Of a DNA stretch of 64,000 bases, positions 37,128 to 57,420 are shown piece after piece. The first letter of the stretch is position 1, and each line of letters begins with the position of its first letter. Source of the stretch: Hymenobacter siberiensis (GTDB lineage Bacteria; Bacteroidota; Bacteroidia; Cytophagales; Hymenobacteraceae); assembly GCF_018967845.1 (NCBI RefSeq), contig NZ_JAHLZZ010000001.1:1116001-1180000 (forward strand), read 5' to 3'. The notes below the pieces were generated by a model. That model did no database searches. It was given only the letters and a program-made list of their open reading frames with translations, and was not told the DNA's origin. A program made the translations under genes and the position numbers.

Positions 37128-39365
37128 ATGAGATGGATTCTTACGGTGTTGATTTTCTGGGTGATGTGTGGGCCGGCGGTTGGCCGGCAGCACTACTGGG
37201 AGGCCGATTATGATTCGCTGACCCGTGCCTTGCCGCAACAGGCTTCTGACATGGCCCGCCTGCGGGTGGTGCAGCACCTGATAGACCTGCACCCCACCAA
37301 CGTACAGGCCCTGCCGCTGCTCGACCAGCTGCTGCGTCTGAACCAGAAACTGCAGCTGCTGGAGGCGGCCCCTTACCGGCACCTGCGGAACGGCCTGGTG
37401 CTGTGGCAGCAAGGTGGCGCCGATGCGGCCGCCCTGGATACCATGAAGGTAGCCGTGACGGAATTCGACCGCCTGGGCCGGCCCATTCCGTGGCTGCTGA
37501 TTGATTTGGTGACGCTCTACAACCGGCTGAGCCGCATGGATTCCCGCCAGCGCTACTACGAGAAAAAGCTGGCCTACTACCGGGTGCACAACGCCACCGA
37601 GAACATCGCCGCCTGCTACGTGTCGCAGGGCGGCTACTACCGGCGCATGGGCGACTACAATCGCACCCTAAACAGCGTGCTGCGCGCCGCCGACCTGGTG
37701 CGCACCTACGACCGGCTGCTCTACGTGCGTGAGCTGCTGGTGACCGGGGCCGTGTACGCCGACTGGGGCAACCGCGCCAAGGCCGTGCAGTACCTGGGCC
37801 AGGCCCTGCGCCTGCCGGAGTTTCGGCGCATCCAGGGCCTGGAGCGGGTATTTACCTTTCTGGCGCTGTCGCGCCTCTACGCCGAGGGCAACCACCCCAA
37901 TACCGCCCTGCGCATGGTGGATTCGGTGCTGGCCACCCACAGCGGCGATGCCGCCGAGCGCAAGCTCAGCCAGGCCTATGCGCTGGTGCAAAAGGGGCGG
38001 GTGCTGCTGCAAATGCAGCGGGTAGCGTCGGCGGGCCAGCTCCTGCAGCAGGCGCAGCAGCTCGACGATTCGCTGCACATCCCCATGTCGGGCAGGCCCG
38101 GCGAGTTTGAGCTGGATGCCGCCTGGGCTCGGTATTACACGGCCCGGCACGACGATGCCCGCGCCGAAAAGCACTGGCTACAGGCTTATCGCAAGGCCAC
38201 GGCCGGCCGCGTTGAGCGCCTGCGGCCCGAATACCTGAAGCAGCTCATTGCCTTCTACGACGACCGCAACCGGCCGGCCGAGGCGCAGCGCTACTCCCAC
38301 GCCTACATCGCCCTCACCGATACCCTCAATGCGGCCCAGAACACTTTTCATGTGGCGCAGTACGAAAGCGAGCGGCTGGAGCAAACCCAGAACGCCCGAA
38401 TTACCAGCCTGAAACAGGACCAGGCGGTGCAGGCCATGCGCCTGCGCCTGGGCCAGTGGCTGCTGCTGGGCGCCCTGCTCACGGTGCTGCTGGTGTCGGC
38501 CCTGGGCGTGTTTATCTATCGCCAGCTGCAGGTGAACCGGCGCACCCTGGACCAGCTGCGCCAAACGCAGAGCCAGCTGGTGCAGGCCGAGAAAATGGCT
38601 TTCCTGGGCGAGCTCACGGCCGGCATTGCCCACGAGCTGCAAAACCCGCTCAACTTCATGAAAAACTTCGCCGAAGTCAGCACCGACCTCGTCGACGGCA
38701 TGAACCCGCAGCACAATGGCCACGTGCCGGTGCTGGAAACCGAGATTCTGGCCGGCCTGAAGCAAAACCTCCAGCAAATCAGCCAGCACGGGCAGCGGGC
38801 ATCGTCCATTATTAAGGACATGCTGGAGCACTCGCGCTCCGGCACCGGCGAGTGCGTGCCCGGCGACCTAAACGCGCTGGCCGCCGATTCGCTGGCGCTG
38901 GCTTACCAGGGCCTGCGCACCACCGACAAAGACTTTTACGCCACCCTGAGCAAGGAGCTCGACCCCAGCCTGGAGCAGGTAGTGATGGTGACGCAGGATA
39001 TGGGCCGCGTGCTGCTGAACCTGTGCACCAACGCCCTGCACGCCGTGCGCCAGCGCCAGCGCGACCTGGCGCAGCCGGGAGCCGGCGGGCCGGCCAACTA
39101 CCAGCCCACCGTGACGGTGCGCACCCGCCGCGCTGCCGGTAGCCCGGTGGTGGAAATCCTGATTTCTGACAACGGCACGGGAATGTCGGAGCAGGTGCGG
39201 GAAAAAATCTTCCAGCCCTTCTTCACCACCAAGCCGCCCGGCGAGGGCACCGGCCTGGGCTTGTCGCTGAGCTACGACATCGTGACCAAGGGCCACGGCG
39301 GTACCCTCACCGTAGAAACCCGCGAGGGCGAAGGCACCGAATTCCTCATCACCCTGCCCGCCTGA
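37128..39365 (+). CDS. TPR-sensor histidine kinase, first of seven
   Basis: The 745-residue protein has a signal peptide (1-20), a periplasmic helical sensor (about 22-435, TPR-like, built on repeated [14 protein letters not shown] helices), one membrane helix near 443-465 ([21 protein letters not shown]), a coiled-coil linker and a kinase core. The phospho-acceptor is His502 in [13 protein letters not shown]; the N-box, DNGTGMSE and [19 protein letters not shown] complete the ATPase. The signal is unknown. I chose ATG 37128 as it gives a normal signal peptide. The gene is followed by the next kinase after 3 bases, so they are co-transcribed. No receiver domain is attached. Confidence 0.93.
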
Positions 39366-39368
39366 GCT

Positions 39369-41552
39369 GTGGAGAAGCCAGCCAACCAGACGGGCCGCCG
39401 CGCCACCACCAGCTGGGCCATGGGCCTGCGCCGCGCGGCGCTGGATTGGGGCCTGCGCGCGGCCGTGGCCATTGGCGTGCTGCTGAGCACCCCCCCTTCT
39501 GTGCACGCCCAAAACCCCGCCACCGACCGCCTCCGGGCCAAGGTGCAGGCTAATATCCAACCCGATGCCTCTCGCGTCAACAGCCTCAACGCCCTGGCCC
39601 TGGAGCTGCGCAACAACGCACCCGACGAGTCGGCCAGCCTGTTTGAGGAGGCGCGCCAGCTGGCGCAGCTGCTGGGCTACACCGCCGGCGCGGCCGAGGC
39701 CGAGCTGGGCCTTGGGTTTTACCACCGCCACCGCAGCGAGTTCCCTTTGGCCGAGAGCTTTTCGGAGCAGGCCCGGCGCGATTTTGAGCGGGTGGGCGAC
39801 CGCATCGGGCAAACCCGCAGCCTCTACAACCAGTCGAACGTGTACTCGGAACAGGGCCTGTACGCCAAATCCTTGCAGGCCAACCTGCGTGGCCTGGCCC
39901 TGGCCGAGGCAGTCCACAGTCCCAAATGGCTGGCCTTTCTCAACACCCAGTTGGGCATTACCAGTACCTATCTGAGCGAGTACGAGAATGCCCGGCGCTA
40001 CCTCATGCAGGGCCTGCGCTGGGCCCGGCGCTCGGGCGACCAGCCCGGCATCGGCCATGCCTATTCCGGGCTGGGCAACCTCTACCGCACCCAGGGACAG
40101 TGGGCCACCGCCCAGTACAACTACGAGCAGGATGCCAAGATATTCCGGCAGCTGAAGGACGAGGGCGGGCTGTTGTTCGAGGGAATTAACGTTGCTGATA
40201 TGGAAGAGCGGCAGGGCCATTACCCCGAAGCGTTTGCCAACGCCCGCCGCAGCTTGCGGCTCGCCCTGCGCCTGCGCGCCGTGGGCGAAGTGCCCCGGGC
40301 AGAGCTGGTGCTGGCCCGTACTTTTCTACACATCGGCCGCCCGGATAGCGCCATTTTTTACGCCCTGCGCACCTTGCAGGCCACGCGCCGCAGTGGGGCC
40401 CGGCAATATAGCCGCGACGCCAGCCAGATACTGGCGCAGGCCTCGGCCCGGCGCGGTAATTTTGCGGCCGCCTACCGCTACGAAAAGTTGTTTGGCGCCT
40501 ATCGCGACACCCTCAACAGCAGCGACCTGCAGCGCCAGGCCGCCGTGCTGGAATACCGCGCCGAGCTGGCCAAGAAGCAAGCCCAGATTGGCCGGCTCAC
40601 TAGCAACAGCTGGCTCATTCAATCCCAGAACCGCCAGCAGGGCTGGCTGCTGCTGGCCGCCCTGCTGGGCCTGGGGGCCGTGGGCACCCTAAGCGCCGTG
40701 CTCTGGCGCAACAATCGCGAAAAGCAGCGGGCCTACGCCCTGCTCAAGCACCAGCAGGACGAGCTGCACGCCGCCCAGAGCCAGCTGGTAGCGGCCGAGA
40801 AATGGGCTTTTGTGGGCGAGCTTTCGGCCGGCATTGCCCACGAGCTGCAGAACCCGTTGGCGTTCATGAAAAACTTTGCCGATGTGAGCGTGGGCCTGCT
40901 CGACCACAGCCCCGCCGCGCAGCCCGCCGGCCTGGAACAGGAAATTATGGCTGGCCTGAAGCAGAACCTGCTCAAAATCAGCCAGCAGGGCCAGCGGGCT
41001 TCCGCCATCATCACCGATATGCTGGCTCATGCCCGCACCGGCGCGGGGCCGCGCGTGCCCACCGAGCTCAATGCCCTGGTGGCCGAGGCGCTGGCGCTGG
41101 CCTACCAGGGCCTGCGCGTGCAGGACGCCACCTTCCATGCCACGCTGGTGCAGGACTTTACCCCCAATCTGGGGCTGGTAGCCGTGGTGCCCTCCGACCT
41201 CACCCGCGTGCTGGTAAACCTGTGCACCAATGCCCTGCACGCCGTGCGCCAGCAGGCCGAAGCAGCCGAAGTGGCCTACCAGCCCACCGTGACGGTGGGG
41301 ACGCGCCAGACCGCCGCCGGCACCGTCGAAATTACCGTGCATGACAACGGTACGGGAATGCCGGCGCAGGTGCGGGAAAAAATCTTTCAGCCCTTCTTCA
41401 CCACCAAGCCGATGGGCGAGGGCACAGGCCTGGGCCTGTCGCTCAGCCACGAGATTGTGACCAAGGGCCACGGCGGCACCCTGGCCGTGGAAAGCGAAGA
41501 GGGCAAAGGCACCGAATTCATCATCAGTCTGCCAACTGGCGGCAAAGCTTAA
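39369..41552 (+). CDS. TPR-sensor histidine kinase, second of seven
   Basis: The 727-residue protein resembles its neighbour: signal peptide, TPR region (about 50-400, with IGHAYSGLGNLYRTQGQWAT), membrane helix near 420-440, then the kinase core with His491 in [13 protein letters not shown]. Note Ala-Phe where the other six have Asn-Phe. The ATPase has DNGTGMPA and [22 protein letters not shown] 39369 starts 3 bases after the previous stop; ATG 39420, eighteenth codon, would give a cleaner signal peptide. A gap of 138 bases follows, with a CAACTTTG word that may be a promoter for the next genes. Confidence 0.92.
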   Translation: MEKPANQTGRRATTSWAMGLRRAALDWGLRAAVAIGVLLSTPPSVHAQNPATDRLRAKVQANIQPDASRVNSLNALALELRNNAPDESASLFEEARQLAQLLGYTAGAAEAELGLGFYHRHRSEFPLAESFSEQARRDFERVGDRIGQTRSLYNQSNVYSEQGLYAKSLQANLRGLALAEAVHSPKWLAFLNTQLGITSTYLSEYENARRYLMQGLRWARRSGDQPGIGHAYSGLGNLYRTQGQWATAQYNYEQDAKIFRQLKDEGGLLFEGINVADMEERQGHYPEAFANARRSLRLALRLRAVGEVPRAELVLARTFLHIGRPDSAIFYALRTLQATRRSGARQYSRDASQILAQASARRGNFAAAYRYEKLFGAYRDTLNSSDLQRQAAVLEYRAELAKKQAQIGRLTSNSWLIQSQNRQQGWLLLAALLGLGAVGTLSAVLWRNNREKQRAYALLKHQQDELHAAQSQLVAAEKWAFVGELSAGIAHELQNPLAFMKNFADVSVGLLDHSPAAQPAGLEQEIMAGLKQNLLKISQQGQRASAIITDMLAHARTGAGPRVPTELNALVAEALALAYQGLRVQDATFHATLVQDFTPNLGLVAVVPSDLTRVLVNLCTNALHAVRQQAEAAEVAYQPTVTVGTRQTAAGTVEITVHDNGTGMPAQVREKIFQPFFTTKPMGEGTGLGLSLSHEIVTKGHGGTLAVESEEGKGTEFIISLPTGGKA

Positions 41553-41690
41553 CGGCGGGGGTAGTAGATTTCAGCCGTTTGGGCGGGCCCGAAACCGGGC
41601 CCGGGAAAAATTCAGCCGCACTACCCAACTTTGCGGTGGCCCGCGCGCCGTTTCTCTGCTCTACTTTCTTGCTTCTGCGCTTCTTCCCCT

Positions 41691-43073
41691 ATGGCTCACT
41701 CGGCTGGTTACGGCGACCTTTTTTACCTGGCTCCGATGGCGTATGGCATCATGCGCGGCCTGAGCCGGTTTCTGGACCTGCCGCAGCGGCTGCCCCGCTG
41801 GCACCGGGCGCTGAATTATATCTGGGTGCCGGCGGCGGCGTTTGTGTTCATTTCGGTGGCGCTCAGGCTCAAATCGCCGGTGCTGGGCGATGTGTACTGG
41901 CTGCTGGTATTGTTTGCCCTGCTGGGCGTGCTGCTGGCCGTGCGGCACTACCGCCCGGCGCGTACGCTGCTGTTTGCCACGGCCCCGTTTGTGGTCTACA
42001 AAGTGCTCGAAATCATTATTGAAGATTCCAACGGTAAGATTCCCAAGAGCTTCGATGCCTTCCTTGGTACAACGCAGGGCTTTGTCATCATCTGGCTGAT
42101 TACGTTTGTTTTCATTGCCCGCAGCCAGAAAAAGCAGCTCGAAAAAGAGCGGGTGCTGCGCGAAGAGGAAGAAAAAGCCAAGCGCCTCATCGAAGCTCAG
42201 AACGTGGAGCTGGAGCGCCTGGTGGCCGAGCGCACCGCCGCCCTCACGCAGCAGGCCCAGGAGCTGAGCGGGGCCCTCGTGGAGCTGCGCACCACGCAGG
42301 CCCAGCTCATTCAGGCCGAGAAAATGGCGAGCCTGGGGGAGCTCACGGCGGGCATTGCCCACGAGATTCAGAACCCGTTGAATTTCGTCAACAACTTTGC
42401 CGAGGTCAGCGCCGAGCTGGTGGAGGAGCTGGAAGAAGAGCAAACCCGCTCCGTACGCGACCTGGAGCTGGAAGCCGAGCTGCTGGGCGACCTCAAGCAG
42501 AACCTGGTCAAAATCAACCAGCACGGGCAGCGGGCGGCCGGTATCGTGCGGGGCATGCTCGAGCACAGCCGGGCCAGCACCGGCGAGCGCGCGCCGACCG
42601 ACCTCAACCAGCTCGCCGACGAGTACCTGCGCCTGGCCTACCACGGGCTTCGGGCTAAAGACAAGACGTTCAACGCCACGCTGGAAACCGACTTTGCGCC
42701 GGCCCTGCCCCTGGTCGATGCCGTGAGTGGCGACCTGGGCCGGGTGCTGCTGAACCTGTTCACCAACGCCTTCTACGCCGTGCGCCAGCGCCAGCAGGCG
42801 GGCGAGGCGGGCTACGCGCCCACCGTCGGCGTGGGCACCGCGCGCGCGAACGGCCACGTCGAAATCCGGGTGACGGACAACGGTTCGGGCATGCCGCCCG
42901 AGGTGCAGCAGAAAATCTTCCAGCCTTTTTTCACCACCAAGCCCACGGGCGAGGGCACGGGCCTGGGGCTTTCGCTCAGCCACGATATCGTAGTGCAAGG
43001 CCACGGCGGCACGCTCACCGTCGAGAGCCAGCCCGGCCAGGGCACCACCTTCACCATTTCCTTACCCGCTTAG
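41691..43073 (+). CDS. Membrane-sensor histidine kinase, third of seven
   Basis: The 460-residue protein differs from the other six in its sensor: there is no TPR region but about four membrane helices in the first 150 residues, with a short loop EIIIEDSNGKIPKSFDAF, then a coiled coil (about 153-205) and the kinase core with His224 in AGIAHEIQNPLNF. The ATPase shows NLFTNAFYAVRQR, DNGSGMPPE and [19 protein letters not shown]. The start ATG 41691 begins MAHSAGYGDLFYLAP. The last 576 bases are part of the 776-bp repeat shared with the fifth kinase. The stop codon is 2 bases before the next start. Confidence 0.93.
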   Translation: MAHSAGYGDLFYLAPMAYGIMRGLSRFLDLPQRLPRWHRALNYIWVPAAAFVFISVALRLKSPVLGDVYWLLVLFALLGVLLAVRHYRPARTLLFATAPFVVYKVLEIIIEDSNGKIPKSFDAFLGTTQGFVIIWLITFVFIARSQKKQLEKERVLREEEEKAKRLIEAQNVELERLVAERTAALTQQAQELSGALVELRTTQAQLIQAEKMASLGELTAGIAHEIQNPLNFVNNFAEVSAELVEELEEEQTRSVRDLELEAELLGDLKQNLVKINQHGQRAAGIVRGMLEHSRASTGERAPTDLNQLADEYLRLAYHGLRAKDKTFNATLETDFAPALPLVDAVSGDLGRVLLNLFTNAFYAVRQRQQAGEAGYAPTVGVGTARANGHVEIRVTDNGSGMPPEVQQKIFQPFFTTKPTGEGTGLGLSLSHDIVVQGHGGTLTVESQPGQGTTFTISLPA

Positions 43074-43273
43074 CCGTGTCCTCTTTTCCCCCACGCCCGC
43101 CGGCCCGCCGGTGCTGGCTGCCGCTGGTGTTCCTCCTGCTGCTCAGCGGCCCGCTGGCCGCCCAGTCCAGCCGCCGCTACTGGGAGGCCAACCCGGACTC
43201 GCTGCGCCGGGTGCTGGCCACCCAGCACGCCGACACGGCCCGCCTGCGCACGCTGCTGCACCTCTACGATACT
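42498..43273 (+). repeat. 776-bp direct repeat, copy 1
   Basis: Base-for-base identical by eye to 47161-47936. It covers the kinase-core end of the third kinase, the junction, and the first 198 bases of the fourth. Both copies stop at the same point, where a single base differs (GATACTT versus GATACTC). Confidence 0.85.
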
Positions 43274-45472
43274 TCGAGCCTCCTGTTGGTGGGCCTCTTT
43301 AACGTGCCTTTAGGCCCACAATTAGGGGAGTTGGTGCAGCTCACGCGCCGGCAGCAGCGTCCTGATGCCCCCGCCTTCCGCCTGAGCTATGCTGCGGTGC
43401 GGCTCGCCCAGGCGGAGCCCGCGCGCGCCCTCGACAGCATGCGGGCGGCGGTCGAAGTGTTCGACCGCGTGGGGCGGCCCATTCCGTTCGTACTCGCAGC
43501 GGTGGCGTCTTATTTCCGACGGCTCAAGCAGCGGGCGGCGCAAACAGCCTATTTCGAAGCCAAGCTGGTACGGTACCAAGCCCGCGGTGCCCGGGAAAAC
43601 ACTTCCCGCAGCTACCATGCGCTGGGCGGCCCTTTCTTGGAACAGGGAGATTACAACCGGGCCATCAGCCACTACCTGCGCGCGGCGGACTTGGCCGTCA
43701 CCTACGACCGGTGGTTTCAAGAAAGTGAGTTGAAAGTGGTCGGCTACTGCTACGCCGAATGGGGCAACTCGGCCAAGGCCCTGTACTATCTGCGCAAGTC
43801 GCTGGCTGCACACCGCTCCTTGCTGGCTGCACACCCCTCCCGGTACGACCGGCTCACCTCCTCCCTGGCGTTCACTTACCGGGGCATGGCCCAGGCCTAT
43901 CGCCAGTTGCACGACTACCCCGCTGCCCTGCGCTACGCCCGGCTCTCGGGGGCGAATAGCCCCGCTGACACCCTCCGCGACATGGCCAGTTTCGTGCTTC
44001 CGATGCGCGCCTATGGGCTGGTGGCCGAAAGCGCGGTGCTGCTCGACATAGGCCGCGTAGCCGAGGCCAGACCCCTGCTGGTGCGGGCGCAGCACTTGGC
44101 CGATTCGCTCAAGATGGGCCTCTTTTCCTCCAACGGCTACTTTGAGCTCGATGCCACCTGGGCGCGCTACTACGTCGCCCGTAACGAGCCGGTCCGCGCC
44201 GAAACCGATTGGCTCACGGCCTACCGCAAGGCCCGCGAAGCCAAGCTGGTGCCCCTGCGGCTGTCCTACCTGCGCGCGCTGGCCGACTTCTACGCCCAGC
44301 GTGGGCAAACCGAACCCGCCGGCCGTTACGCCCGCCTCGGCTTGGCCCTGAGCGACTCGCTCAGCACCCAGCAAGGCGCCTTTCACGTGGCCGGCTACGA
44401 AGCCGAGCGTGCCGAGCAGGCCCAGCAGCAGCGCATCGCCGCCTTGCGCTTGGCCCAGGTGCAGGACGCCGCCCGCGCCCGCCGCCAGCGCCTGCTGCTG
44501 GGGGCCACGCTGGCGGTGCTGGCGTTGCTGGCGGGCCTGGGCTTCGTCCTCTGGCGCGCCAACCGCCAAAAGCAGTTCGCCAACGAGCAGCTCAACGAGC
44601 TCAACGCGGCCGTCACCCATCAGAAACAAGGCCTGCAGACCCAGCGCGACCAGCTCGACGCCTCCCTGACGGAGCTGCGCACCACGCAGGCCCAGCTCAT
44701 TCAGAAAGAGAAGATGGCGAGTTTGGGCGAGCTCACGGCGGGCATCGCCCACGAGATTCAGAACCCGTTGAACTTCGTCAACAACTTCTCGGAGGTGAGC
44801 ACGGAGCTGTGCCAGGAGGCGCAGGCGCTGCTGGCCACGGAGGAGTGGACGCCCGCGGACAAGGCCGAACTGACCGACTTACTCACCGACCTGGGGCAGA
44901 ACCAGGCGAAAATCACCCAGCACGGCCAGCGGGCGGCCAGCATCGTCAAGGGCATGTTGGAGCACTCCAGTTCCGCCGCTGGCGAGCGCGAGCCCACCGA
45001 CTTGAACCGCCTCTGCGACGAGTACCTGCGCCTGGCCTACCAGGGCCTGCGGGCCAAGGACAAATCCTTCAACGCTGCCCTCAGCACCGACTTCTTGGCC
45101 GACTTGCCGCGGGTCACGCTAGTGGGCGCCGACGTGGGGCGAGTGTTGCTGAACCTGTTCACCAACGCCTTTTACGCCGTGCGCCAGCGCCAGCAGCAGG
45201 GCGAGCCTGGCTACCAGCCCCAGGTCGGCGTGCGCACCGTGCTGCTCAATCAGCAGGTCCAGATTCAGGTGACGGATAACGGCACGGGCATGAGCGAAGC
45301 CATCCAAAGCAAGATTTTCCAGCCTTTTTTCACCACCAAGCCCACGGGCGAGGGCACGGGCCTGGGGCTTTCGCTCAGCCACGATATCGTAGTGCAAGGC
45401 CACGGCGGCAGCCTCACCGTCGAGAGCCAGCCCGGCCAGGGCACCACCTTCACCATTTCCTTACCCGCTTAG
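43076..45472 (+). CDS. TPR-sensor histidine kinase, fourth of seven
   Basis: The 798-residue protein has a signal peptide (MSSFPPRPPARRCW, then LVFLLLLSGPLAAQ), a long helical sensor (about 30-470), membrane helix near 478-500 (LLLGATLAVLALLAGLGFVLW), a coiled coil and the kinase core with His559 in AGIAHEIQNPLNF. The start is GTG at 43076, two bases after the previous stop. Sensor residues 1-215 and 330-545 are nearly identical to those of the sixth kinase, while the part between is diverged. In the core, FSEVSTELCQEAQALLATEEW is unlike the other members, so the dimer helix was exchanged or diverged separately. Confidence 0.92.
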   Translation: MSSFPPRPPARRCWLPLVFLLLLSGPLAAQSSRRYWEANPDSLRRVLATQHADTARLRTLLHLYDTSSLLLVGLFNVPLGPQLGELVQLTRRQQRPDAPAFRLSYAAVRLAQAEPARALDSMRAAVEVFDRVGRPIPFVLAAVASYFRRLKQRAAQTAYFEAKLVRYQARGARENTSRSYHALGGPFLEQGDYNRAISHYLRAADLAVTYDRWFQESELKVVGYCYAEWGNSAKALYYLRKSLAAHRSLLAAHPSRYDRLTSSLAFTYRGMAQAYRQLHDYPAALRYARLSGANSPADTLRDMASFVLPMRAYGLVAESAVLLDIGRVAEARPLLVRAQHLADSLKMGLFSSNGYFELDATWARYYVARNEPVRAETDWLTAYRKAREAKLVPLRLSYLRALADFYAQRGQTEPAGRYARLGLALSDSLSTQQGAFHVAGYEAERAEQAQQQRIAALRLAQVQDAARARRQRLLLGATLAVLALLAGLGFVLWRANRQKQFANEQLNELNAAVTHQKQGLQTQRDQLDASLTELRTTQAQLIQKEKMASLGELTAGIAHEIQNPLNFVNNFSEVSTELCQEAQALLATEEWTPADKAELTDLLTDLGQNQAKITQHGQRAASIVKGMLEHSSSAAGEREPTDLNRLCDEYLRLAYQGLRAKDKSFNAALSTDFLADLPRVTLVGADVGRVLLNLFTNAFYAVRQRQQQGEPGYQPQVGVRTVLLNQQVQIQVTDNGTGMSEAIQSKIFQPFFTTKPTGEGTGLGLSLSHDIVVQGHGGSLTVESQPGQGTTFTISLPA

Positions 45473-45620
45473 CCGTGTCCTCTTTTCCCCCACGCCCGCC
45501 GGCCCGCCGGTGCTGGCTGCCGCTGGTGTTCCTCCTGCTGCTCAGCGGCCCGCTGGCCGCCCAGTCCAGCCGCCGCTACTGGGAGGCCGACCCGGACTCG
45601 CTGCGCCGGGTGCTGGCCAC
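45317..45620 (+). repeat. Partial third copy of the repeat at the fourth/fifth kinase junction
   Basis: This 300-base block matches the middle of the 776-bp repeat with a few substitutions (for example GGCAGCCTC instead of GGCACGCTC, and GGCCGACCC instead of GGCCAACCC), and includes the same TAG-CC-GTG junction. It diverges at both ends. Confidence 0.75.
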
Positions 45621-47736
45621 CCAACGCACCGATACGGCCCGCCTGCGCACGCTGATGCATTTGGTGGATACTGGAGAGGGTAATATCGCTCACCTCGCCG
45701 AGTTGAGCGCCTTATCGGGCCGCCTGCACCGGCCCGAGCACCGGGCCTACCGCCTGCTGCTGCACGGCAAACAGCTCGCTGCACGCCGAGCGGTTGTTCC
45801 CGCCCTCGATAGCCTGCAGGCGGCCATTGCCGCGCTCGACCGCTTGCACCGGCCGGTGCCGTGGCAGCTGATTTCCATCCGCTTCCTGTTCAACGCCGCG
45901 GGCCAGCCGCAAGCCAAGCGGGCCTATTACGAAAGTCAGCTGGCTACCTACCGCCGGCGGGGCGATGCCGTCAGCATGACGGCCTGCTACCATGGCCTGG
46001 CCGGCTACTACAACTCGCTGGGCAACTACAACCAGGCCATTGGCTATTACCTGCAAGCGGCCGAAGGGTACCGAGCTTTTAGTAGGGGCACTTCCCGCGA
46101 TGAGTTCGCGGCGGCTGGCCAGTTGTATGCCGAGTGGGGCAACCTGGACAAGGCGCTGTATTATCTGCGGCAGTCCCTGGCGGGGCAAGGCAACCCGGAC
46201 GATAGCTACCGGAACCTGCAGATGGCCGCGGTGCAGCTGCAAGTGCATAATTATCCGGCCGCGCTGCACGCCATCGACCGGGCCCTGGCGGCCGCAGCCC
46301 GTGATACCACCAACGATGCTACGTTAAAACCCATTGCACTGGTGCTAAAAAGCGCGGTGCTGCTGGCGCAGCGGCGCCCGCGCGAAGCCGGACCGCTGCT
46401 GCGCACGGCCCAGTACCTGGCCGACTCGCTCCAGTTGCCTTTCCGCAGCGGCTACGGCACTTTGGAGCTGGAGGCGACTTGGGCGCGGTATTACGAGGCC
46501 CTGGGCGACAACGCCCGCGCCGAAAGCTACTGGCTGGCTGCTTCCCGCACGGTCCGGCAGGGCGGTTTCGCCTCGGGGCGCCTGGCCTATCTGCACGAGC
46601 TGGCCCGCTTCTACCAGCAGCACCGCCGGCCGGCCGTGGCGGCCACCTACGCGCTGGCGGCCCTGGGCCTGGCCGACACCCTGCGGGCGGCCGAAGGTGC
46701 CCTGAATGTAACGCGCTACGAAACCGACCAGGCTCAACAAACCCAGCAGGCGCGCATCGCGGGCCTGCGCCTGGCCCAGGTGCAGGACGCGGCCCGGGCG
46801 CGGCGCCAGCGCCTGCTGCTGGGCGCCGCGCTGGCCGTGCTGGCCCTGCTGGCCGGCCTGGGCTTCGTGTTGTGGCGCGGCAATCGCCGCCAGCAGCAAG
46901 CCAACGCGCAGCTGGAAGCCCAGCGCGACGAAACCGCGCAGGCGCTGAAGAATTTGCAGACCACGCAAACCCAGCTCATTCAGGCCGAGAAAATGGCCAG
47001 CCTGGGGGAGCTCACGGCGGGCATTGCCCACGAGATTCAGAACCCGTTGAACTTCGTCAACAACTTTGCCGAGGTCAGCGCCGAGCTGCTAACGGAGCTG
47101 AAAGAAGCCCAGGCCGCAGGCGACTTTGAAGAAGTCATGGCATTGGCTGACGACCTGACCCAGAACCTGGTCAAAATCAACCAGCACGGGCAGCGGGCGG
47201 CCGGTATCGTGCGGGGCATGCTCGAGCACAGCCGGGCCAGCACCGGCGAGCGCGCGCCGACCGACCTCAACCAGCTCGCCGACGAGTACCTGCGCCTGGC
47301 CTACCACGGGCTTCGGGCTAAAGACAAGACGTTCAACGCCACGCTGGAAACCGACTTTGCGCCGGCCCTGCCCCTGGTCGATGCCGTGAGTGGCGACCTG
47401 GGCCGGGTGCTGCTGAACCTGTTCACCAACGCCTTCTACGCCGTGCGCCAGCGCCAGCAGGCGGGCGAGGCGGGCTACGCGCCCACCGTCGGCGTGGGCA
47501 CCGCGCGCGCGAACGGCCACGTCGAAATCCGGGTGACGGACAACGGTTCGGGCATGCCGCCCGAGGTGCAGCAGAAAATCTTCCAGCCTTTTTTCACCAC
47601 CAAGCCCACGGGCGAGGGCACGGGCCTGGGGCTTTCGCTCAGCCACGATATCGTAGTGCAAGGCCACGGCGGCACGCTCACCGTCGAGAGCCAGCCCGGC
47701 CAGGGCACCACCTTCACCATTTCCTTACCCGCTTAG
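45475..47736 (+). CDS. TPR-sensor histidine kinase, fifth of seven
   Basis: The 753-residue protein shares the first 49 residues almost unchanged with its neighbours, then has a distinct sensor (about 60-430, with QAIGYYLQAAEGYRAFSRG). A membrane helix near 438-460 leads to a coiled coil and the kinase core with His519 in AGIAHEIQNPLNF. Its C-terminal 192 residues are encoded by the 776-bp repeat and are identical to those of the third kinase. Start is GTG 45475, stop TAG two bases before the next GTG. Confidence 0.92.
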   Translation: MSSFPPRPPARRCWLPLVFLLLLSGPLAAQSSRRYWEADPDSLRRVLATQRTDTARLRTLMHLVDTGEGNIAHLAELSALSGRLHRPEHRAYRLLLHGKQLAARRAVVPALDSLQAAIAALDRLHRPVPWQLISIRFLFNAAGQPQAKRAYYESQLATYRRRGDAVSMTACYHGLAGYYNSLGNYNQAIGYYLQAAEGYRAFSRGTSRDEFAAAGQLYAEWGNLDKALYYLRQSLAGQGNPDDSYRNLQMAAVQLQVHNYPAALHAIDRALAAAARDTTNDATLKPIALVLKSAVLLAQRRPREAGPLLRTAQYLADSLQLPFRSGYGTLELEATWARYYEALGDNARAESYWLAASRTVRQGGFASGRLAYLHELARFYQQHRRPAVAATYALAALGLADTLRAAEGALNVTRYETDQAQQTQQARIAGLRLAQVQDAARARRQRLLLGAALAVLALLAGLGFVLWRGNRRQQQANAQLEAQRDETAQALKNLQTTQTQLIQAEKMASLGELTAGIAHEIQNPLNFVNNFAEVSAELLTELKEAQAAGDFEEVMALADDLTQNLVKINQHGQRAAGIVRGMLEHSRASTGERAPTDLNQLADEYLRLAYHGLRAKDKTFNATLETDFAPALPLVDAVSGDLGRVLLNLFTNAFYAVRQRQQAGEAGYAPTVGVGTARANGHVEIRVTDNGSGMPPEVQQKIFQPFFTTKPTGEGTGLGLSLSHDIVVQGHGGTLTVESQPGQGTTFTISLPA

Positions 47737-47936
47737 CCGTGTCCTCTTTTCCCCCACGCCCGCCGGCCCGCCGGTGCTGGCTGCCGCTGGTGTTCCTCCT
47801 GCTGCTCAGCGGCCCGCTGGCCGCCCAGTCCAGCCGCCGCTACTGGGAGGCCAACCCGGACTCGCTGCGCCGGGTGCTGGCCACCCAGCACGCCGACACG
47901 GCCCGCCTGCGCACGCTGCTGCACCTCTACGATACT
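47161..47936 (+). repeat. 776-bp direct repeat, copy 2
   Basis: Identical by eye to 42498-43273, spanning the kinase core of the fifth kinase, the junction and the start of the sixth. Copies are 4.66 kb apart in the same orientation. Confidence 0.85.
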
Positions 47937-50108
47937 CCGAGCCTCCTCTTTAACGTGTCTTTAGGCCCACAATTAGGGGAGTTGGTGCAGCTCACGCGCC
48001 GGCAGCAGCGTCCTGATGCCCCCGCCTTCCGCCTGAGCTATGCTGCGGCGCGGCTCGCCCAGGCGGAGCCCGCGCGCGCCCTCGACAGCCTGCGGGCGGC
48101 GGTCGAAGTGTTCGACCGCGTGGGGCGGCCCATTCCGTTCGTACTCGCAGCGGTGGCGTCTTATTTCCGACGGCTCAAGCAGCGGGCGGCGCAAATAGCC
48201 TATTTCGAAGCCAAGCTGGCACGGTACCAAGCCCGCGGTGCCCGGGAAAACACTTCCCACAGCTACCATGCGCTGGGCGGCCCTTTCTTGGAACAGGGAG
48301 ATTACAACCGGGCCATCAGCCACTACCTGCGCGCGGCGGACTTGGCCGTCACCTACGACCGGTCGTTTCAAGAAAATGAGCTTCAAGTAGTGGGCAGCTG
48401 CTACGCCGAGTGGGGCAACCCGACCAAGGCCCTGTACTTCCTGCGCCAGTCGTTGGCCGTGGATGCAACCTTGCCCCGGCGCAATGGCTTCGACTGGAAG
48501 AGCTACACGTACTGGGCCATGGCCCAGGCCTACCGCCAGCTGCGCAACTATCCCGCAGCCCTGCGCTATGCCAACCTGTCCTTAGCTGGTGTCCCCACCG
48601 ACACCACCCGCAGCTATGCGGCTTACGTTCCAGCTGTTCAGGCATGCGGCTTGGTGGTCAAAAGCGCGGTGCTGCTCGATATGAGACGCGTGGCCGAAGC
48701 CGGGCCCTTGCTGGTGCGGGCGCAGCACTTGGCCGACTCGCTCAAGATGGGCCTCACTTCCTCCAACGGCTACTTTGAGCTCGATGCCACCTGGGCGCGC
48801 TACTACGTCGCCCGTAACGAGCCGGTCCGCGCCGAAACCGATTGGCTCACGGCCTACCGCAAGGCCCGCGAAGCCAAGCTGGTGCCCCTGCGGCTGTCCT
48901 ACCTGCGCGCGCTGGCCGACTTCTACGCCCAGCGTGGGCAAACCGAACCCGCCGGCCGCTACGGCCGCCTCGGCTTGGCCCTGAGCGACTCGCTCAGCAC
49001 CCAGCAAGGCGCCTTTCACGTGGCCGGCTACGAAGCCGAGCGTGCCGAGCAGGCCCAGCAGCAGCGCATCGCCGCCTTGCGCTTGGCCCAGGTGCAGGAC
49101 GCCGCCCGCGCCCGCCGCCAGCGCCTGCTGCTGGGGGCCACGCTGGCGGTGCTGGCGTTGCTGGCGGGCCTGGGCTTCGTCCTCTGGCGCGCCAACCGCC
49201 AAAAGCAGTTCGCCAACGAGCAGCTCAACGAGCTCAACGCGGCCGTCACCCATCAGAAACAAGGCCTGCAGACCCAGCGCGACCAGCTCGACGCCTCCCT
49301 GACGGAGCTGCGCACCACGCAGGCCCAGCTCATTCAGGCCGAGAAGATGGCGAGTTTGGGCGAGCTCACGGCGGGCATTGCCCACGAGATTCAGAACCCG
49401 TTGAACTTCGTTAATAACTTTGCCGAGGTCAGCGCCGAGCTCATCACCGAGCTGGAAGAAGAGCAACAGAAACCCGACCGCGACCTGGAGCTGGAAGCCG
49501 AGCTGCTGACCGACCTCAAGCAGAACCTGCTCAAAATCAGCCAGCACGGCGGGCGGGCGGCCAGCATTGTGCGGGGCATGCTGGAGCACTCGCGCACCAG
49601 CTCCGGCGAGCGCACGCCCACCAACCTCAACCAGCTGGCCGACGAGTACCTGCGCCTGGCCTACCACGGCCTGCGCGCCAAAGACAAAACCTTCAACGCC
49701 ACGCTCAAGCCCGATTTCGACCCCGTCCTGCCGCCTGTCGAGGTTATTGCCCAGGACCTGGGCCGGGTGCTGCTCAACCTGCTCAGCAACGCGTTTTATG
49801 CCGTGCGCCAGCGCCAGCAGCGCGGCGTGGCCGGCTACGCGCCCACCGTGGGCATCAGCACCCGGCGGGTGGGTGAGAAGGTGGAAATCCGGGTGCGCGA
49901 CAACGGCCAGGGCATTCCCGAGGCCGTGCGGGCCAAAATATTTCAGCCTTTTTTCACCACCAAGCCCACCGGCGAGGGCACGGGCCTGGGCCTGTCGCTG
50001 AGCTATGATATTGTGACGCAGGGCCACGGCGGCACGCTCTCCGTGACGTCGGAGGAAGGCAGTTTTACCGAGTTTCTGATTAGCTTGCCTATTAATCAAA
50101 CAGGCTGA
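47739..50108 (+). CDS. TPR-sensor histidine kinase, sixth of seven
   Basis: The 789-residue protein is a near copy of the fourth kinase through residue 215 and again from about 320 to 535, with a private stretch between. The core has His549 in AGIAHEIQNPLNF, then FAEVSAELITELEEEQQKPD; the ATPase has DNGQGIPEA and [19 protein letters not shown], and the C-terminus is its own (SEEGSFTEFLISLPINQTG). Start is GTG 47739. A 200-base gap follows with no clear promoter. Confidence 0.92.
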   Translation: MSSFPPRPPARRCWLPLVFLLLLSGPLAAQSSRRYWEANPDSLRRVLATQHADTARLRTLLHLYDTPSLLFNVSLGPQLGELVQLTRRQQRPDAPAFRLSYAAARLAQAEPARALDSLRAAVEVFDRVGRPIPFVLAAVASYFRRLKQRAAQIAYFEAKLARYQARGARENTSHSYHALGGPFLEQGDYNRAISHYLRAADLAVTYDRSFQENELQVVGSCYAEWGNPTKALYFLRQSLAVDATLPRRNGFDWKSYTYWAMAQAYRQLRNYPAALRYANLSLAGVPTDTTRSYAAYVPAVQACGLVVKSAVLLDMRRVAEAGPLLVRAQHLADSLKMGLTSSNGYFELDATWARYYVARNEPVRAETDWLTAYRKAREAKLVPLRLSYLRALADFYAQRGQTEPAGRYGRLGLALSDSLSTQQGAFHVAGYEAERAEQAQQQRIAALRLAQVQDAARARRQRLLLGATLAVLALLAGLGFVLWRANRQKQFANEQLNELNAAVTHQKQGLQTQRDQLDASLTELRTTQAQLIQAEKMASLGELTAGIAHEIQNPLNFVNNFAEVSAELITELEEEQQKPDRDLELEAELLTDLKQNLLKISQHGGRAASIVRGMLEHSRTSSGERTPTNLNQLADEYLRLAYHGLRAKDKTFNATLKPDFDPVLPPVEVIAQDLGRVLLNLLSNAFYAVRQRQQRGVAGYAPTVGISTRRVGEKVEIRVRDNGQGIPEAVRAKIFQPFFTTKPTGEGTGLGLSLSYDIVTQGHGGTLSVTSEEGSFTEFLISLPINQTG

Positions 50109-50309
50109 TTACTGGCAATGCCTCCGGCCCGGCCTTGCTCGGCACACCAGCCGCTGTGCTGCTCTCTTTTCTGGTTCTACCACAGGATTTCACTGCTAAG
50201 CTACTGAACCATTGGCTGTATTTGGCGGTTTGGGCGGGGCTTTGGCCGGTGGCTTGGTGAATAAGCGCCGGCGGTATCAGTCACTTTTTTTCCCCTTAGA
50301 ACCAATTCG

Positions 50310-52304
50310 TTGATTTCTATTATTTCCCGGATTTCAGCTTTCCGTAGGCTTGGCTGGCTGGGCATCTGGTTGGCTGTGCTGGTAGCCGGCCCAAAGCCGG
50401 TGGTGGCCGGAATCCCGTCGCCGGGAGTGGCCGTAGACAGCCTGCGCCACCTGCTGACGCTGCCCCAGACCGACTTCAACCGCGTGACGCTGCTCTGCCA
50501 AATCAGCGACCAGCTCTGGACCCAGCACACCGACTCGGCCGCCGTGTACGCCAACAAGGCCTTGGCTCTGGCCCGCCGCATCCATTACCGGCAGGGCGAG
50601 GGCGCGGCCCTCAACCGCCTGGGGGCCGCCCTGCGCGAGAGCAACCTGGCGCGCTCGCTGGAGGTGTTTCAGCAGTCCTTGCACATTGCCGAAACCACCC
50701 ACGACCAGGGCCTGATTGCCCAGAACCTGCGCAGCATCGGCATAATCTACGTGTACTTGCGCGACAAGCGCCAAGGCCTGGCCTACTACTTCCGGGCCCT
50801 GAAAATTGGCGAGCAGCTGCACGACGAGTACCGCACGGTGATTGAGCTGAGCAACATTGGCCTGGCGTATGACTTGTTCGGCCAGCTCGATTCGGCCCGG
50901 ATTTTTCAGGAACGCGCCTACGCCCTGGCCCGCCGCCTGCACACCCCCACCAACTACATTCTGTACGGCCTGGGCAACGTGGCCCGCAAGAACGGCCAGG
51001 TGGCGCAGGCCCGCACGTACTACCGCCAAAGCATCGCCGAGTCGAAGAAGGTACACCACCTGCGCAGCCTCAATTTCGCCTACGTGGGCCTGGCCGAGCT
51101 GTACCAGCAAACCGGGCAGCCCGATTCCAGTATTTACTACGCCCGGCTGGGCTGCCAGGCGGCCCAGAACAATGGTTTTCTGCGCGGCGTGCTCAACGCC
51201 TGCACGCTGCTTACCAAGGATTTTAAACAGCGCGGCCGCCCCGACAGCGCCCTCAAGTACCAGAGCCTCATGCTGGTGATGAAGGACACGCTGTTTGGCC
51301 AGGAGAAGGTGATGCGCCTGCAAAGCCTCAACTACCGCGAGCAGCAGCGCACGCAGGAAGTGGCCGCCAGCCATGCCGCGCTGCGGGCCCGCTACCGCAC
51401 TGCCGCGCTAGTGGCCGGGCTGGTGGGCCTGCTGGTGCTGGCCGTGATTCTGGCCCGGCACGGCCGCCAGCAGCGGCGCGTCCGCATGGCGCTGGAGCAG
51501 TCGCTGGCCGAGCTCAAAACGGCCCAGGACCAGCTGGTGCAGCGCGAGAAAATGGCCTTTCTGGGCGAGCTCACGGCTGGCATTGCCCACGAGCTGCAAA
51601 ACCCGCTCAACTTCGTGAAAAACTTCGCCGAAGTAAGTGCCGAGCTGGTAGACGAAATCAACGGCGCCCCCCACAACTCCGCCCGCGACATCACCCTGGA
51701 ACGCGAAATTCTGGATGGCCTGAAGCTGAACCTGCAGCAAATCAGCCAGCACGGGCAGCGGGCCACGTCCATCATCAAGGGCATGCTGGAGCACTCCCGC
51801 ACCGGCAGCGGCCAGCGCGAGCCCACCAACCTCAACTCCCTCATCGAGGAAAGCCTGTGCCTGGCCTACCAGGGCCTGCGCACGAAGGATAAAGATTTTA
51901 ACGCCGAGTTTATCACCCGGCTCGACCCCGCCCTGCCGCCAATGTCGGTGGTGACGCAGGACCTGATTCGGGTTCTCATTAACCTGTTTACCAACGCCTT
52001 TCATGCCATGCAGCAGCGCCAGCGCCGCCACTCTGGGCCCGGGTACCAGCCGGCCCTCACGGTGAGTAGCCGGGTGGTGGCGGAACAGGTCGAAATCAGC
52101 ATTCGCGACAATGGCACGGGCATGTCTGACAAGGTGAAAGCCAAAATATTCCAGCCGTTTTTCACCACCAAGCCCGTGGGCGAGGGCACGGGCCTGGGCC
52201 TGTCCATGAGCCACGAAATAGTGACTAAGGGCCACGGCGGCACCCTCACCTTAGAAACCCGCGAGGGCGAGGGCACCGAATTCCTCATCCGCCTGCCGGC
52301 CTAA
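50310..52304 (+). CDS. TPR-sensor histidine kinase, seventh of seven
   Basis: The 664-residue protein has a signal peptide and a clearly canonical TPR sensor (about 60-355; GIIYVYLRDKRQGLAYYFRA and GLAYDLFGQLDSARIFQERA). A membrane helix near 368-385 precedes a coiled coil and the kinase core with His427 in [22 protein letters not shown] and [19 protein letters not shown]. The start is TTG 50310 (MISIISRISAFRR) because no in-frame ATG precedes the first TPR; this needs care. The core is closest to the first kinase. It ends 51 bases before the stand-alone receiver. Confidence 0.9.
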   Translation: MISIISRISAFRRLGWLGIWLAVLVAGPKPVVAGIPSPGVAVDSLRHLLTLPQTDFNRVTLLCQISDQLWTQHTDSAAVYANKALALARRIHYRQGEGAALNRLGAALRESNLARSLEVFQQSLHIAETTHDQGLIAQNLRSIGIIYVYLRDKRQGLAYYFRALKIGEQLHDEYRTVIELSNIGLAYDLFGQLDSARIFQERAYALARRLHTPTNYILYGLGNVARKNGQVAQARTYYRQSIAESKKVHHLRSLNFAYVGLAELYQQTGQPDSSIYYARLGCQAAQNNGFLRGVLNACTLLTKDFKQRGRPDSALKYQSLMLVMKDTLFGQEKVMRLQSLNYREQQRTQEVAASHAALRARYRTAALVAGLVGLLVLAVILARHGRQQRRVRMALEQSLAELKTAQDQLVQREKMAFLGELTAGIAHELQNPLNFVKNFAEVSAELVDEINGAPHNSARDITLEREILDGLKLNLQQISQHGQRATSIIKGMLEHSRTGSGQREPTNLNSLIEESLCLAYQGLRTKDKDFNAEFITRLDPALPPMSVVTQDLIRVLINLFTNAFHAMQQRQRRHSGPGYQPALTVSSRVVAEQVEISIRDNGTGMSDKVKAKIFQPFFTTKPVGEGTGLGLSMSHEIVTKGHGGTLTLETREGEGTEFLIRLPA

Positions 52305-52355
52305 GCCGGTCCGCGCCCTACCTTTGGCCCCGACTACTTTTCCAGCCTCCGCCCC

Positions 52356-52733
52356 ATGCAAATTCTGGTTGTTGATGATGAAACCGATGTGCGCGACCTG
52401 TTTTTGCAGCGCTTTCGCCGCGAAATCCGCAACGGCGAGATGAGCTTCAGCTTCGCTTTTTCGGGCGAGGAAGCCCTGACGTATCTGCGCGCCCACCAAT
52501 CCGAGGTGCTCATCATTCTCTCCGACATCAACATGCCCGGCATGAGCGGCCTCGACCTGCTCGGCCACGTCAAGGAGGAGTTTGAGATGCCGCCCACCAC
52601 CATGATAATGATTACGGCCTACGGTGACAATGCCAGCTACCAGCAGGCCATGAGCCTGGGGGCCAACGATTTTCTGACCAAGCCCGTCGATTTTGCCGTG
52701 CTCAAGGAAAAGCTTCAGCACCTGCTGCCCTAA
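52356..52733 (+). CDS. Stand-alone response regulator receiver (CheY-like)
   Basis: The 125-residue protein is a single receiver domain with acidic residues Asp7 and Asp8 in LVVDDE, phosphorylation site Asp57 in ILSDINMPG, the conserved Thr/Ser region MITAYGD and Lys in TKPVDF. It has no output domain, so it would act by protein contact or as a phosphate shuttle. It follows the kinase array, with a TACCTTTG word at 52319-52326 just upstream. It is a close relative of the receiver in the cyclase encoded 86 bases downstream. Confidence 0.95.
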   Translation: MQILVVDDETDVRDLFLQRFRREIRNGEMSFSFAFSGEEALTYLRAHQSEVLIILSDINMPGMSGLDLLGHVKEEFEMPPTTMIMITAYGDNASYQQAMSLGANDFLTKPVDFAVLKEKLQHLLP

Positions 52734-52782
52734 GCCAACATAGAAAGGGGAGCGGTAATCTAAGTGCCATCCTTTTCCGACG

Positions 52783-52790
52783 TATTTTTG
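52783..52790 (+). promoter_or_regulatory. Candidate -7 element for the cyclase gene
   Basis: TATTTTTG matches TAnnTTTG and lies 29 bases before the cyclase ATG. No convincing -33 element, so tentative. Confidence 0.35.
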
Positions 52791-52819
52791 TCCAACTATT
52801 CGGCCTTCTGCCAATCCTT

Positions 52820-53866
52820 ATGAAAACCAAGATTCTGGTGGTCGATGACGAAGCCGACCTCGAACTGCTTATCAAGCAGAAGTTTCGGCGCAAAATCCGG
52901 GAGAGTACCTACGAGTTTGTCTTCGCCACCAACGGCCAGGAAGCCCTCGACCGCATCCTCGAAAACCCGGATACCGATGTCATTCTCTCCGACATCAACA
53001 TGCCGGTGATGGATGGCCTCACCCTGCTCACCCACACCCACACCGAGTACCCGGCCATGAAAACGGTCATCGTATCGGCCTACGGCGACATGGGCAACCT
53101 GCGCATCGCCATGAACCGGGGCGCGTTCGATTTCGTGGTGAAACCCGTCGATTTTGCCGACCTGGAACTCACCATCGAAAAAACCGCCGAGCAGGTGCGC
53201 CAACTGCGCGACACGCTCCGCGCCATCCAGGAAAACAACATCCTGAAGATGTACGTCGATGAAACCGTGCTCAATTTCATGACGCGGCCCGACTTCGAAA
53301 ACCGCCTCCTGGCCTCCGAAACTGTGGAAGCCACCGTGGTTTTTCTCGATATCTGCGGCTTTACCTCGCTGGCCGAAAAGCTGCCGCCCACCGACGTGGT
53401 GAGCCTGCTCAACACGTATTTTGACTTGGTAGTGAAGGAGTTCATTTCCCAGGGCGGCCACGTCGATAAGTTCATGGGCGATGCCGTGATGGCCGTGTTC
53501 CGGGGCGAGCACCACCTCGACCGCGCCATCGATGCGGCTCTCTCGGCCCGCACCGCGCTCCAGCAGAGCCAGGCCCCGCTGCCCCCCGGCTTCGACTACC
53601 GCCCCAAAGTGAGCATCGGCGTGAACACCGGCGAAGTCGTATCCGGCAACATCGGCTCCGCCTCCCTCAAACGCCTGGATTACACTGTGATTGGCGACGT
53701 CGTGAATATGTCGCAGCGCTTGCAGTCGGCCGCCAAAGCCGGCCAGGTTATCATCAGCGAAGCCGTGTATTTTAAGGTGAAAGGGTCCTTTCACTGCCAG
53801 TATGTTGATGAGGTAGTACTCAAGAACAAGGCGTTGCCGGTAAAGATTTACGAAGTAATGGAGTAG
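52820..53866 (+). CDS. Receiver-adenylate cyclase (class III)
   Basis: The 348-residue protein has a receiver domain (about 4-125, Asp58 in ILSDINMPV, Lys109 in VVKPVDF), a short helix, and a class III cyclase domain (about 168-320). The catalytic residues are in place: metal-binding Asp177 (VFLDICGF) and Asp221 (DKFMGDAVMAVF), Lys217 and Asp293 that select adenine, and Asn296 and Arg300 for the transition state (IGDVVNMSQR). It is therefore expected to make cAMP when its receiver is phosphorylated. It follows the kinase array and the lone receiver, and is convergent with a gene for a cyclic-nucleotide-binding protein. Confidence 0.95.
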   Translation: MKTKILVVDDEADLELLIKQKFRRKIRESTYEFVFATNGQEALDRILENPDTDVILSDINMPVMDGLTLLTHTHTEYPAMKTVIVSAYGDMGNLRIAMNRGAFDFVVKPVDFADLELTIEKTAEQVRQLRDTLRAIQENNILKMYVDETVLNFMTRPDFENRLLASETVEATVVFLDICGFTSLAEKLPPTDVVSLLNTYFDLVVKEFISQGGHVDKFMGDAVMAVFRGEHHLDRAIDAALSARTALQQSQAPLPPGFDYRPKVSIGVNTGEVVSGNIGSASLKRLDYTVIGDVVNMSQRLQSAAKAGQVIISEAVYFKVKGSFHCQYVDEVVLKNKALPVKIYEVME

Positions 53867-53886
53867 GGAATAGCGCTAATCAGAGC

Positions 53887-53918
53887 ACGTCATGCTGAGC
53901 GCAGCCGAAGCATGACGT
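53887..53918. repeat. Short GTCATGC family hairpin
   Basis: 9-bp arms acgtcatgc (53887-53895) and gcatgacgt (53910-53918) with loop TGAGCGCAGCCGAA. It lies between the convergent cyclase and cNMP-binding genes, so it may end one or both transcripts. Confidence 0.7.
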
Positions 53919-53949
53919 TGTTTTATACCCTAAAACCCAACTCAGACCT

Positions 53950-57273: not shown

Positions 57274-57330
57274 GCGCGGAGGCAGCCGGCCCCACCGGGC
57301 ACGGCTCCGGCCAAAGATAGGGCTAAGGCA

Positions 57331-57420
57331 TGTAGCGTGGACTAAAAGTCCGCGTATGGTCAAGCCGTGCGTGGCAAGGAGCTTCCCAGGCAACGCGCGG
57401 ACTAAAAGTCCGCGCTACAG
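57331..57420. repeat. Paired GGACTAAAAGTCC palindromes
   Basis: Two palindromic words, gtggactaaaagtccgcg (57338-57355) and cgcgcggactaaaagtccgcg (57394-57414), form an outer inverted repeat through TGTAGCG/CGCTACA ends. The right end supplies the TAG stop of the DUF4833 gene. It is related to the perfect hairpin at 29750-29815. Confidence 0.75.

Follow-up and report, generated by a model that had tools for sequence, protein, structure and literature searches.

Convergence of several histidine kinases on one pathway is familiar from the Spo0 phosphorelay, in which the orphan kinases KinA–KinE converge on Spo0F (PMC6136694, available sections), and from the GacS/RetS network of Pseudomonas, where likewise several sensor kinases act on a single pathway (PMC5992135, available sections). 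Here, we analyze a locus of Hymenobacter siberiensis that lies in a window of 64,000 nucleotides (assembly GCF_018967845.1, contig NZ_JAHLZZ010000001.1, positions 1,116,001 to 1,180,000 of the forward strand) and comprises seven tandem histidine kinases (HK1–HK7), a stand-alone CheY-like receiver (REC) and a receiver fused to a class III cyclase (REC-CYC). Phosphorylation-controlled second-messenger cyclases are usually pictured with one kinase; in CyaC, kinase, receivers and cyclase reside in one chain. Multi-kinase convergence (Spo0, Gac) and phosphorylation-linked cyclases (CyaC) are already known, and what appears new is their combination in a conserved Bacteroidota module, in which about ten kinases at most are predicted to feed a single cyclase. 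In Hymenobacter, the locus is a candidate cyclic AMP (cAMP) pathway.

The locus resembles the Spo0 phosphorelay in having multiple orphan kinases whose predicted specificity residues are nearly identical, and in its one single-domain receiver. As far as the available sections of PMC6136694 describe it, however, the Spo0 kinases are dispersed, the histidine phosphotransfer (HPt)-like protein Spo0B acts next and the transcription factor Spo0A is the output, whereas here the kinases stand in tandem and the output is a cyclase. The Pfam search for a phosphotransferase, confined to the products of the nine genes, detected none. The GacS/RetS kinases are large hybrids encoded outside any single tandem array and their output is not known to be a cyclase, unlike the predicted output of this locus. 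The locus and the CyaC-type cyanobacterial adenylate cyclase both place a receiver and class III cyclase under histidine kinase control, and the CyaC structures 1WC0–1WC6 are among the fold matches of the REC-CYC model; unlike in CyaC, kinases and receiver-cyclase are encoded separately, the inputs number up to seven, and none of the nine gene products combines kinase and cyclase. The photoactivated adenylyl cyclase OaPAC has a similar linker and cyclase, but its input domain is a BLUF light sensor instead of a receiver. A different output occurs in three loci from Binatia, Nitrospira and Ignavibacteria bins (L069, L072, L078), which encode a family kinase and a receiver of the same subfamily (57–66% identity over the receiver); in all three tested, the receiver is joined to a SpoIIE phosphatase and not to a cyclase. 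In a survey covering 44,008 two-component genes, all reported clusters comprise between one and four genes and sum to the total, and the available text is silent on whether larger clusters were sought (PMC3018481). Our literature search retrieved no description of this locus, nor of a recombining tandem kinase array with a stand-alone receiver and a receiver-cyclase.

The original prediction, made from the letters of the window, had placed seven plus-strand kinases ahead of the receiver and the receiver-cyclase, and this arrangement is borne out by nine open reading frames at 37128–53866. HK1 (37128..39365, +; reading frame, Pfam and family search) starts at ATG 37128, with GTG 36912 as a possible alternative, and has a helical sensor with a sub-threshold tetratricopeptide repeat (TPR) match and a single membrane span ahead of its core. 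HK2 (39369..41552, +; GTG start, ATG 39420 being a possible alternative) carries a TPR sensor (TPR_12, 70.7 bits). HK3 (41631..43073, +) is multi-pass by hydropathy, and its catalytic half is identical to that of HK5 in DNA; its likely start, ATG 41691, gives 460 amino acids, the length usual among relatives. The helical-sensor kinase HK4 (43076..45472, +) has its signal peptide in common with HK5 and HK6; the TPR-type kinase HK5 (45475..47736, +) joins this signal peptide to an HK3-type core, and HK6 (47739..50108, +) combines a sensor similar to that of HK4 with a different core. HK7 (50310..52304, +), again a TPR kinase, adjoins REC. Only 2–3 nucleotides separate HK1 from HK2 (with the GTG start) and HK3, HK4, HK5 and HK6 from each other, and wider gaps precede HK7 (201 nucleotides), REC (51) and REC-CYC (86).

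All seven kinases contain HisKA and HATPase_c domains, the HisKA match of HK4 (25.7 bits) lying below the cut-off of 26.9 in a protein that has AGIAHE and all other motifs, and Pfam finds no receiver domain in any of them, as had been claimed. All seven cores contain HE[I/L]QN, a motif regarded in kinases of this class as permitting both kinase and phosphatase action. The assignment of six TPR-type sensors and one multi-pass sensor stands in part: TPR_12 exceeds the Pfam cut-off in HK2 and HK7, whereas it falls 0.3 bits short in HK5 and stays below in HK1, HK4 and HK6. In the predicted structure of HK4, the sensor is entirely helical, with the helices in pairs, and among the 50 Foldseek matches of this model listed from the PDB, all are to the kinase part and none to the sensor. 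The multi-pass character of HK3 is accompanied by a 7TMR-DISM match (PF07695) of 17.2 bits, and of 22.7 bits in a relative, L160, both under the cut-off of 29. Flanked by a signal peptide on one side and a membrane span on the other, the sensor regions are predicted to lie in the periplasm, and the kinases would thus sense envelope signals.

REC (52356..52733, +) consists of a Response_reg domain alone, and REC-CYC (52820..53866, +) of Response_reg and Guanylate_cyc (PF00211) domains. Both receivers carry the complete set of phosphorylation residues, i.e., the phosphorylatable Asp, the acidic pair, Thr/Ser and Lys. The catalytic residues that the original prediction had read in the cyclase are in place and are also conserved in relatives: REC-CYC has the phospho-acceptor Asp58, the metal-binding Asp177 and Asp221, the substrate residues Lys217 and Thr289, and Asn296 and Arg300. 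Lys together with Thr or Asp is the ATP-selecting pair of class III cyclases, and the predicted substrate and product of REC-CYC are ATP and cAMP. In the structural model (mean predicted local distance difference test, pLDDT, 80.9; predicted template modelling score, pTM, 0.52), the receiver is followed by a helix (residues 112–138), a low-confidence stretch (139–164) and the cyclase. Its fold is closest to those of Pseudomonas CyaB and OaPAC; residues 121–346, comprising linker and cyclase, align with OaPAC at E = 1.2e-28.

A search for the same gene order in other Hymenobacter genomes had been suggested as a check, and the order, whose absence would have counted against the original prediction, proves to be conserved. 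REC-CYC (E <= 1e-60) is present in 99 of 120 Hymenobacter genomes and in 30 of 395 genomes across the phylum. In the 98 Hymenobacter loci compared (97 fetched loci and the window; G108, with its REC-CYC match in two pieces, was left out), REC adjoins REC-CYC in 98/98, the phospho-acceptor Asp is retained in every REC and every REC-CYC, and the cyclase residues are retained in 98/98. The number of upstream kinases is variable: in the 91 loci free of edge limits, there are none in 8, one in 41, two in 16, three in 8, four in 9, five in 4, six in 3 and seven in 2, by an automatic count that halts at split genes and took fragments as kinases in L108, L116, L138 and L162. The count gave two for G072, for which reading gives eight (one cut by the edge, one split), so that the number ranges from 0 to 8 within Hymenobacter, and seven is not a conserved number. 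Since the single-kinase loci of the genus mostly carry the short multi-pass type, HK3 looks like the founding input. Beyond the genus, 28 loci were compared in 27 Bacteroidota genomes: REC lies directly upstream of REC-CYC in 21, a family kinase lies upstream in 22, and two or more kinases do so in 12, with ten family kinases within ~62 kb upstream of REC-CYC in G229 and eight within ~36 kb in G236.

Kinases and cyclase also co-occur. Beyond Hymenobacter, family kinases (E <= 1e-70) occur in 27/27 genomes with REC-CYC and in 0/19 without, the latter being those listed by name among the 365 without a match, minus one Hymenobacter. Within the genus, REC (E <= 1e-16) is present in 20/20 genomes with REC-CYC, hand-picked from the 99 and mostly of few contigs, and in 3/20 without (20 of the 21 such genomes), two of these three matches being partial. 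In the genome under study, both families are closed. Searches with the seven cores return the array cores at 465–521 bits (HK1, 482), and all matches of this strength lie in the array; the next match (233 + 96 bits, C1:833941-834734) is a gene split over two frames that looks broken, and a further family kinase of 230 bits (L227 4311-5156, C1:215825-216640) has Asp-Arg in place of the phospho-acceptor His-Glu and is likely a pseudokinase. Remaining matches reach at most 73 bits. A search with REC-CYC returns the protein itself, REC at 88 bits and then other receivers at no more than 51 bits; by a PF00211 search, REC-CYC is the sole class III cyclase of the genome.

Further evidence for a common partner comes from the residues that are predicted to determine specificity, namely the six kinase and seven receiver positions listed for the Spo0 proteins in the available part of PMC6136694. 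Mapped through KinA, EnvZ and Spo0F numbering, they read NFNFEV in six of the seven kinases and AFNFDV in HK2; NFNF[E/D]V is found in 172 of 184 readable kinases of the Hymenobacter loci (two more being unreadable) and in 46/57 kinases of the other loci. On the receiver side, REC reads EDVLQRD and REC-CYC EDLLQKD, and across the Hymenobacter loci REC-CYC has EDLLQKD or EDLLQRD in 98/98 and REC has EDVLQR in 95/98. None of the 13 readable other kinases of this genome matches the array (23 loci were given, including the two pieces of the split family gene), and two other readable receivers differ from REC and REC-CYC at these positions. Family kinases outside the locus were read as well: in genomes with REC-CYC, 22/23 retain NFNF[E/D]V, and 10 of their 11 regions have no REC alongside (L237 and L238, counted separately, adjoin each other), whereas at nine loci from Hymenobacter genomes without REC-CYC, one per genome, 0/9 retain it (SFKFEV in five; GFKFEV, TFNFEV and NFNFEG in one each; one unreadable). 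At eight of these nine, no stand-alone REC lies beside the kinase; at the ninth, L251 (G038), a receiver/kinase-like/receiver protein adjoins it. In the simplest reading, orphan kinases elsewhere may also report to the sole REC/REC-CYC pair, and kinases left without this pair may have changed partner, although the sample is small and the changed kinases could represent a separate old subfamily.

These observations make it likely that the seven kinases serve as alternative inputs to the shared pair REC and REC-CYC, with cAMP predicted to rise upon receiver phosphorylation. The system could operate in the following manner: The periplasmic helical sensor, or the multi-pass sensor in the case of HK3, would set the kinase/phosphatase balance of its own dimer. 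The AGIAHE histidine may then donate its phosphoryl group to the receivers, at Asp58 in REC-CYC and at Asp57 in REC. The receiver of REC-CYC would act on the cyclase dimer via the helix 112–138, as the input domains of photoactivated cyclases do. REC, which has no output domain, would buffer or drain phosphate via the shared kinases; a competing acceptor is the best reading of a stand-alone receiver in a locus without a phosphotransferase, and it is the least certain step.

The cAMP produced would bind to other cyclic nucleotide monophosphate (cNMP)-binding proteins and to the product of the convergent gene downstream (53950..57393, −), a candidate cAMP effector that combines about nine hydropathy peaks and HEAT repeats with a cNMP-binding domain at its C-terminus (PF00027, 77.5 bits). 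Its membrane part has no Pfam match at E <= 10, no match among PDB sequences at E <= 1 and one meaningless NCBIfam match; a nucleotide-transporter label was dropped, Pfam and PDB sequences giving no match. The gene stands next to REC-CYC in 81/98 Hymenobacter loci, and the protein (E <= 1e-40) is present in 20/20 Hymenobacter genomes with REC-CYC and in 1/20 without; the exception, G114, has seven family kinases and matches REC in part. Additional copies often lie a few kb from family kinases outside the locus, e.g., in G062, G068, G081, G085 and G109. The genome has eight PF00027 sites, seven of them above the cut-off.

The array itself bears the traces of recombination, which, like the convergent gene, the original prediction had not mentioned. 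HK3–HK6 have long stretches of identical DNA in common: HK3 and HK5 are identical over 636 nucleotides, through the stop codon into the following gene; the first ~40 codons are common to HK4, HK5 and HK6; and the sensors of HK4 and HK6 are 98–100% identical in DNA outside residues about 201–350, where identity drops to 56–77% in the windows read, while their cores differ. HK3–HK6 are thus recombination mosaics, as judged from their DNA. In G072, a second genome counted as the same species, the REC-CYC protein is 100% identical and the array has eight kinases: one core whose final 174 codons match those of HK4 exactly carries an HK6-type sensor, the HK6 core stands behind an HK4-type sensor (99%) in a gene broken into two reading frames, HK5 is nearly unchanged, and one additional HK5-like kinase is present. 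The re-joined pairs indicate that sensors and cores have recombined within one species, although repeat assembly errors could account for part of the difference between the two genomes (4 and 3 contigs). Genus-wide concerted evolution of the array was rejected: in a best-hit test (185 kinases extracted, G072 excluded), sensor and core are both closest to another genome in 124/137 kinases, and in the other 13 only the core (9), only the sensor (3) or both (1) are closest in their own genome. Conversion is therefore local, affecting HK3–HK6 and few kinases besides, and the majority are positional orthologues; relatives carry orthologues of HK1, HK2, HK3 and HK7 in the corresponding places, and HK4–HK6 are a species-specific expansion between HK3 and HK7.

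The ratio of non-synonymous to synonymous changes per site (pN/pS) is 0–0.21 for the cores (one pair has no change at all) and 0.07 for the multi-pass sensor of HK3. For the TPR-type sensors, it is 0.00 (HK5 versus b6, two synonymous changes), 0.34–0.35 and up through 0.50–1.19, and residues 43–200 of the HK4/HK6 sensors differ by seven non-synonymous and zero synonymous changes. Positive selection on the sensors was rejected, as the change counts are small and relaxed constraint fits these ratios equally well. The kinase set is labile: tandem copies in the HK3–HK7 interval duplicate and recombine, which re-joins sensors to cores with unchanged predicted partner residues. A tentative proposal, possible rather than probable, goes further: the cores, all connected to a single cAMP switch, would serve as sockets, recombination among near-identical copies would carry periplasmic sensors from one core to another, and the number of inputs would change between strains at a fixed output. 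If so, strains of one species differ in the signals that they can convert to cAMP. Inputs that recombine within a species beside an identical REC-CYC protein constitute a natural experiment on gaining and swapping inputs at fixed output. The near-identical dimerization domains may, in addition, allow mixed dimers of kinases with different sensors, which would integrate signals before phosphotransfer.

Several observations weigh against a dedicated link between the kinases and the cyclase. Eighteen of the 20 Hymenobacter genomes without REC-CYC retain 1–7 family kinases (E <= 1e-50), and the changed residues at the nine loci described above may mean that these kinases have other partners. Among the 91 complete Hymenobacter loci, eight lack a kinase immediately upstream of REC (one of them has a family kinase ~4.5 kb downstream), and REC-CYC has no adjacent REC in 7/28 loci outside the genus. 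The effector candidate is absent (E <= 1e-20) from 25 of the 27 non-Hymenobacter genomes with REC-CYC, and the two that have it belong to one family; it is therefore regarded as a lineage-specific addition and not as part of the core. Finally, linked genes can be lost together, and because the genomes are related, the co-occurrence counts overstate independence. The kinases retained without REC-CYC, together with orphans far from it in other genomes, could suggest that the family acts via receivers encoded elsewhere and that the position beside REC-CYC is incidental. This is the least probable of the alternatives: the genome under study has no third family receiver, order and co-occurrence are conserved in other families of the phylum, and the specificity residues differ in the kinases that persist without REC-CYC. 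The original prediction that many kinases feed one receiver pair is thus supported by conserved order, co-occurrence, closed families and matching predicted specificity residues, and is qualified by a family that in Hymenobacter also occurs without the cyclase, though with changed specificity residues where it was examined.

Two narrower alternatives concern the inputs and the output. The conserved kinases alone (HK3, HK7 and perhaps HK1 and HK2) might drive REC-CYC, with HK4–HK6 as recent duplicates that are silent, redundant or decaying. This would agree with their species-specific expansion, with the copy broken into two frames in G072 and with sensor pN/pS values of mostly 0.5–1.2, which relaxed constraint would also produce; the cores of HK4–HK6 nevertheless retain all motifs and NFNFEV, and a pN/pS of 0.16–0.21 between core copies indicates purifying selection, which leaves this reading unlikely. 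Alternatively, the true output might be REC, through its binding to a motor, kinase or other protein, with REC-CYC as a side branch whose cAMP reports REC phosphorylation. REC is conserved like REC-CYC and always adjoins it in the genus, and one site in G068 (L244) has a kinase and REC without the cyclase; given that REC has no output domain and that REC-CYC dispenses with an adjacent REC in a quarter of the loci elsewhere, we regard it as quite improbable. Convergence of the kinases on the shared pair REC and REC-CYC hence remains the preferred reading.

Some minor features accompany the locus. Between REC-CYC and the convergent gene lies a hairpin followed by a T-rich stretch (53885..53926, +), recognized by eye and by folding and likely a terminator; it is absent from a consensus terminator scan, the loop limit of which is 8. 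A sigma-70 scan was uninformative because Bacteroidota promoters differ. Upstream of the kinase array, this genome has an HD-like gene. At L249 (G042), an HK1-type kinase, this HD-like gene and a fragment of the membrane-cNMP gene are found with no REC or REC-CYC, which looks like a collapsed array. G068 (L237–L244) has 27 family kinases (E <= 1e-50) and one REC-CYC, and its kinase clusters include some with no adjoining receiver. Two proteins encoded on another contig of the genome under study (C2, 147721 bases; L229, L230) combine a receiver with a cNMP-binding domain, each adjoining a histidine kinase, and are proteins in which phosphorylation and cAMP could meet.

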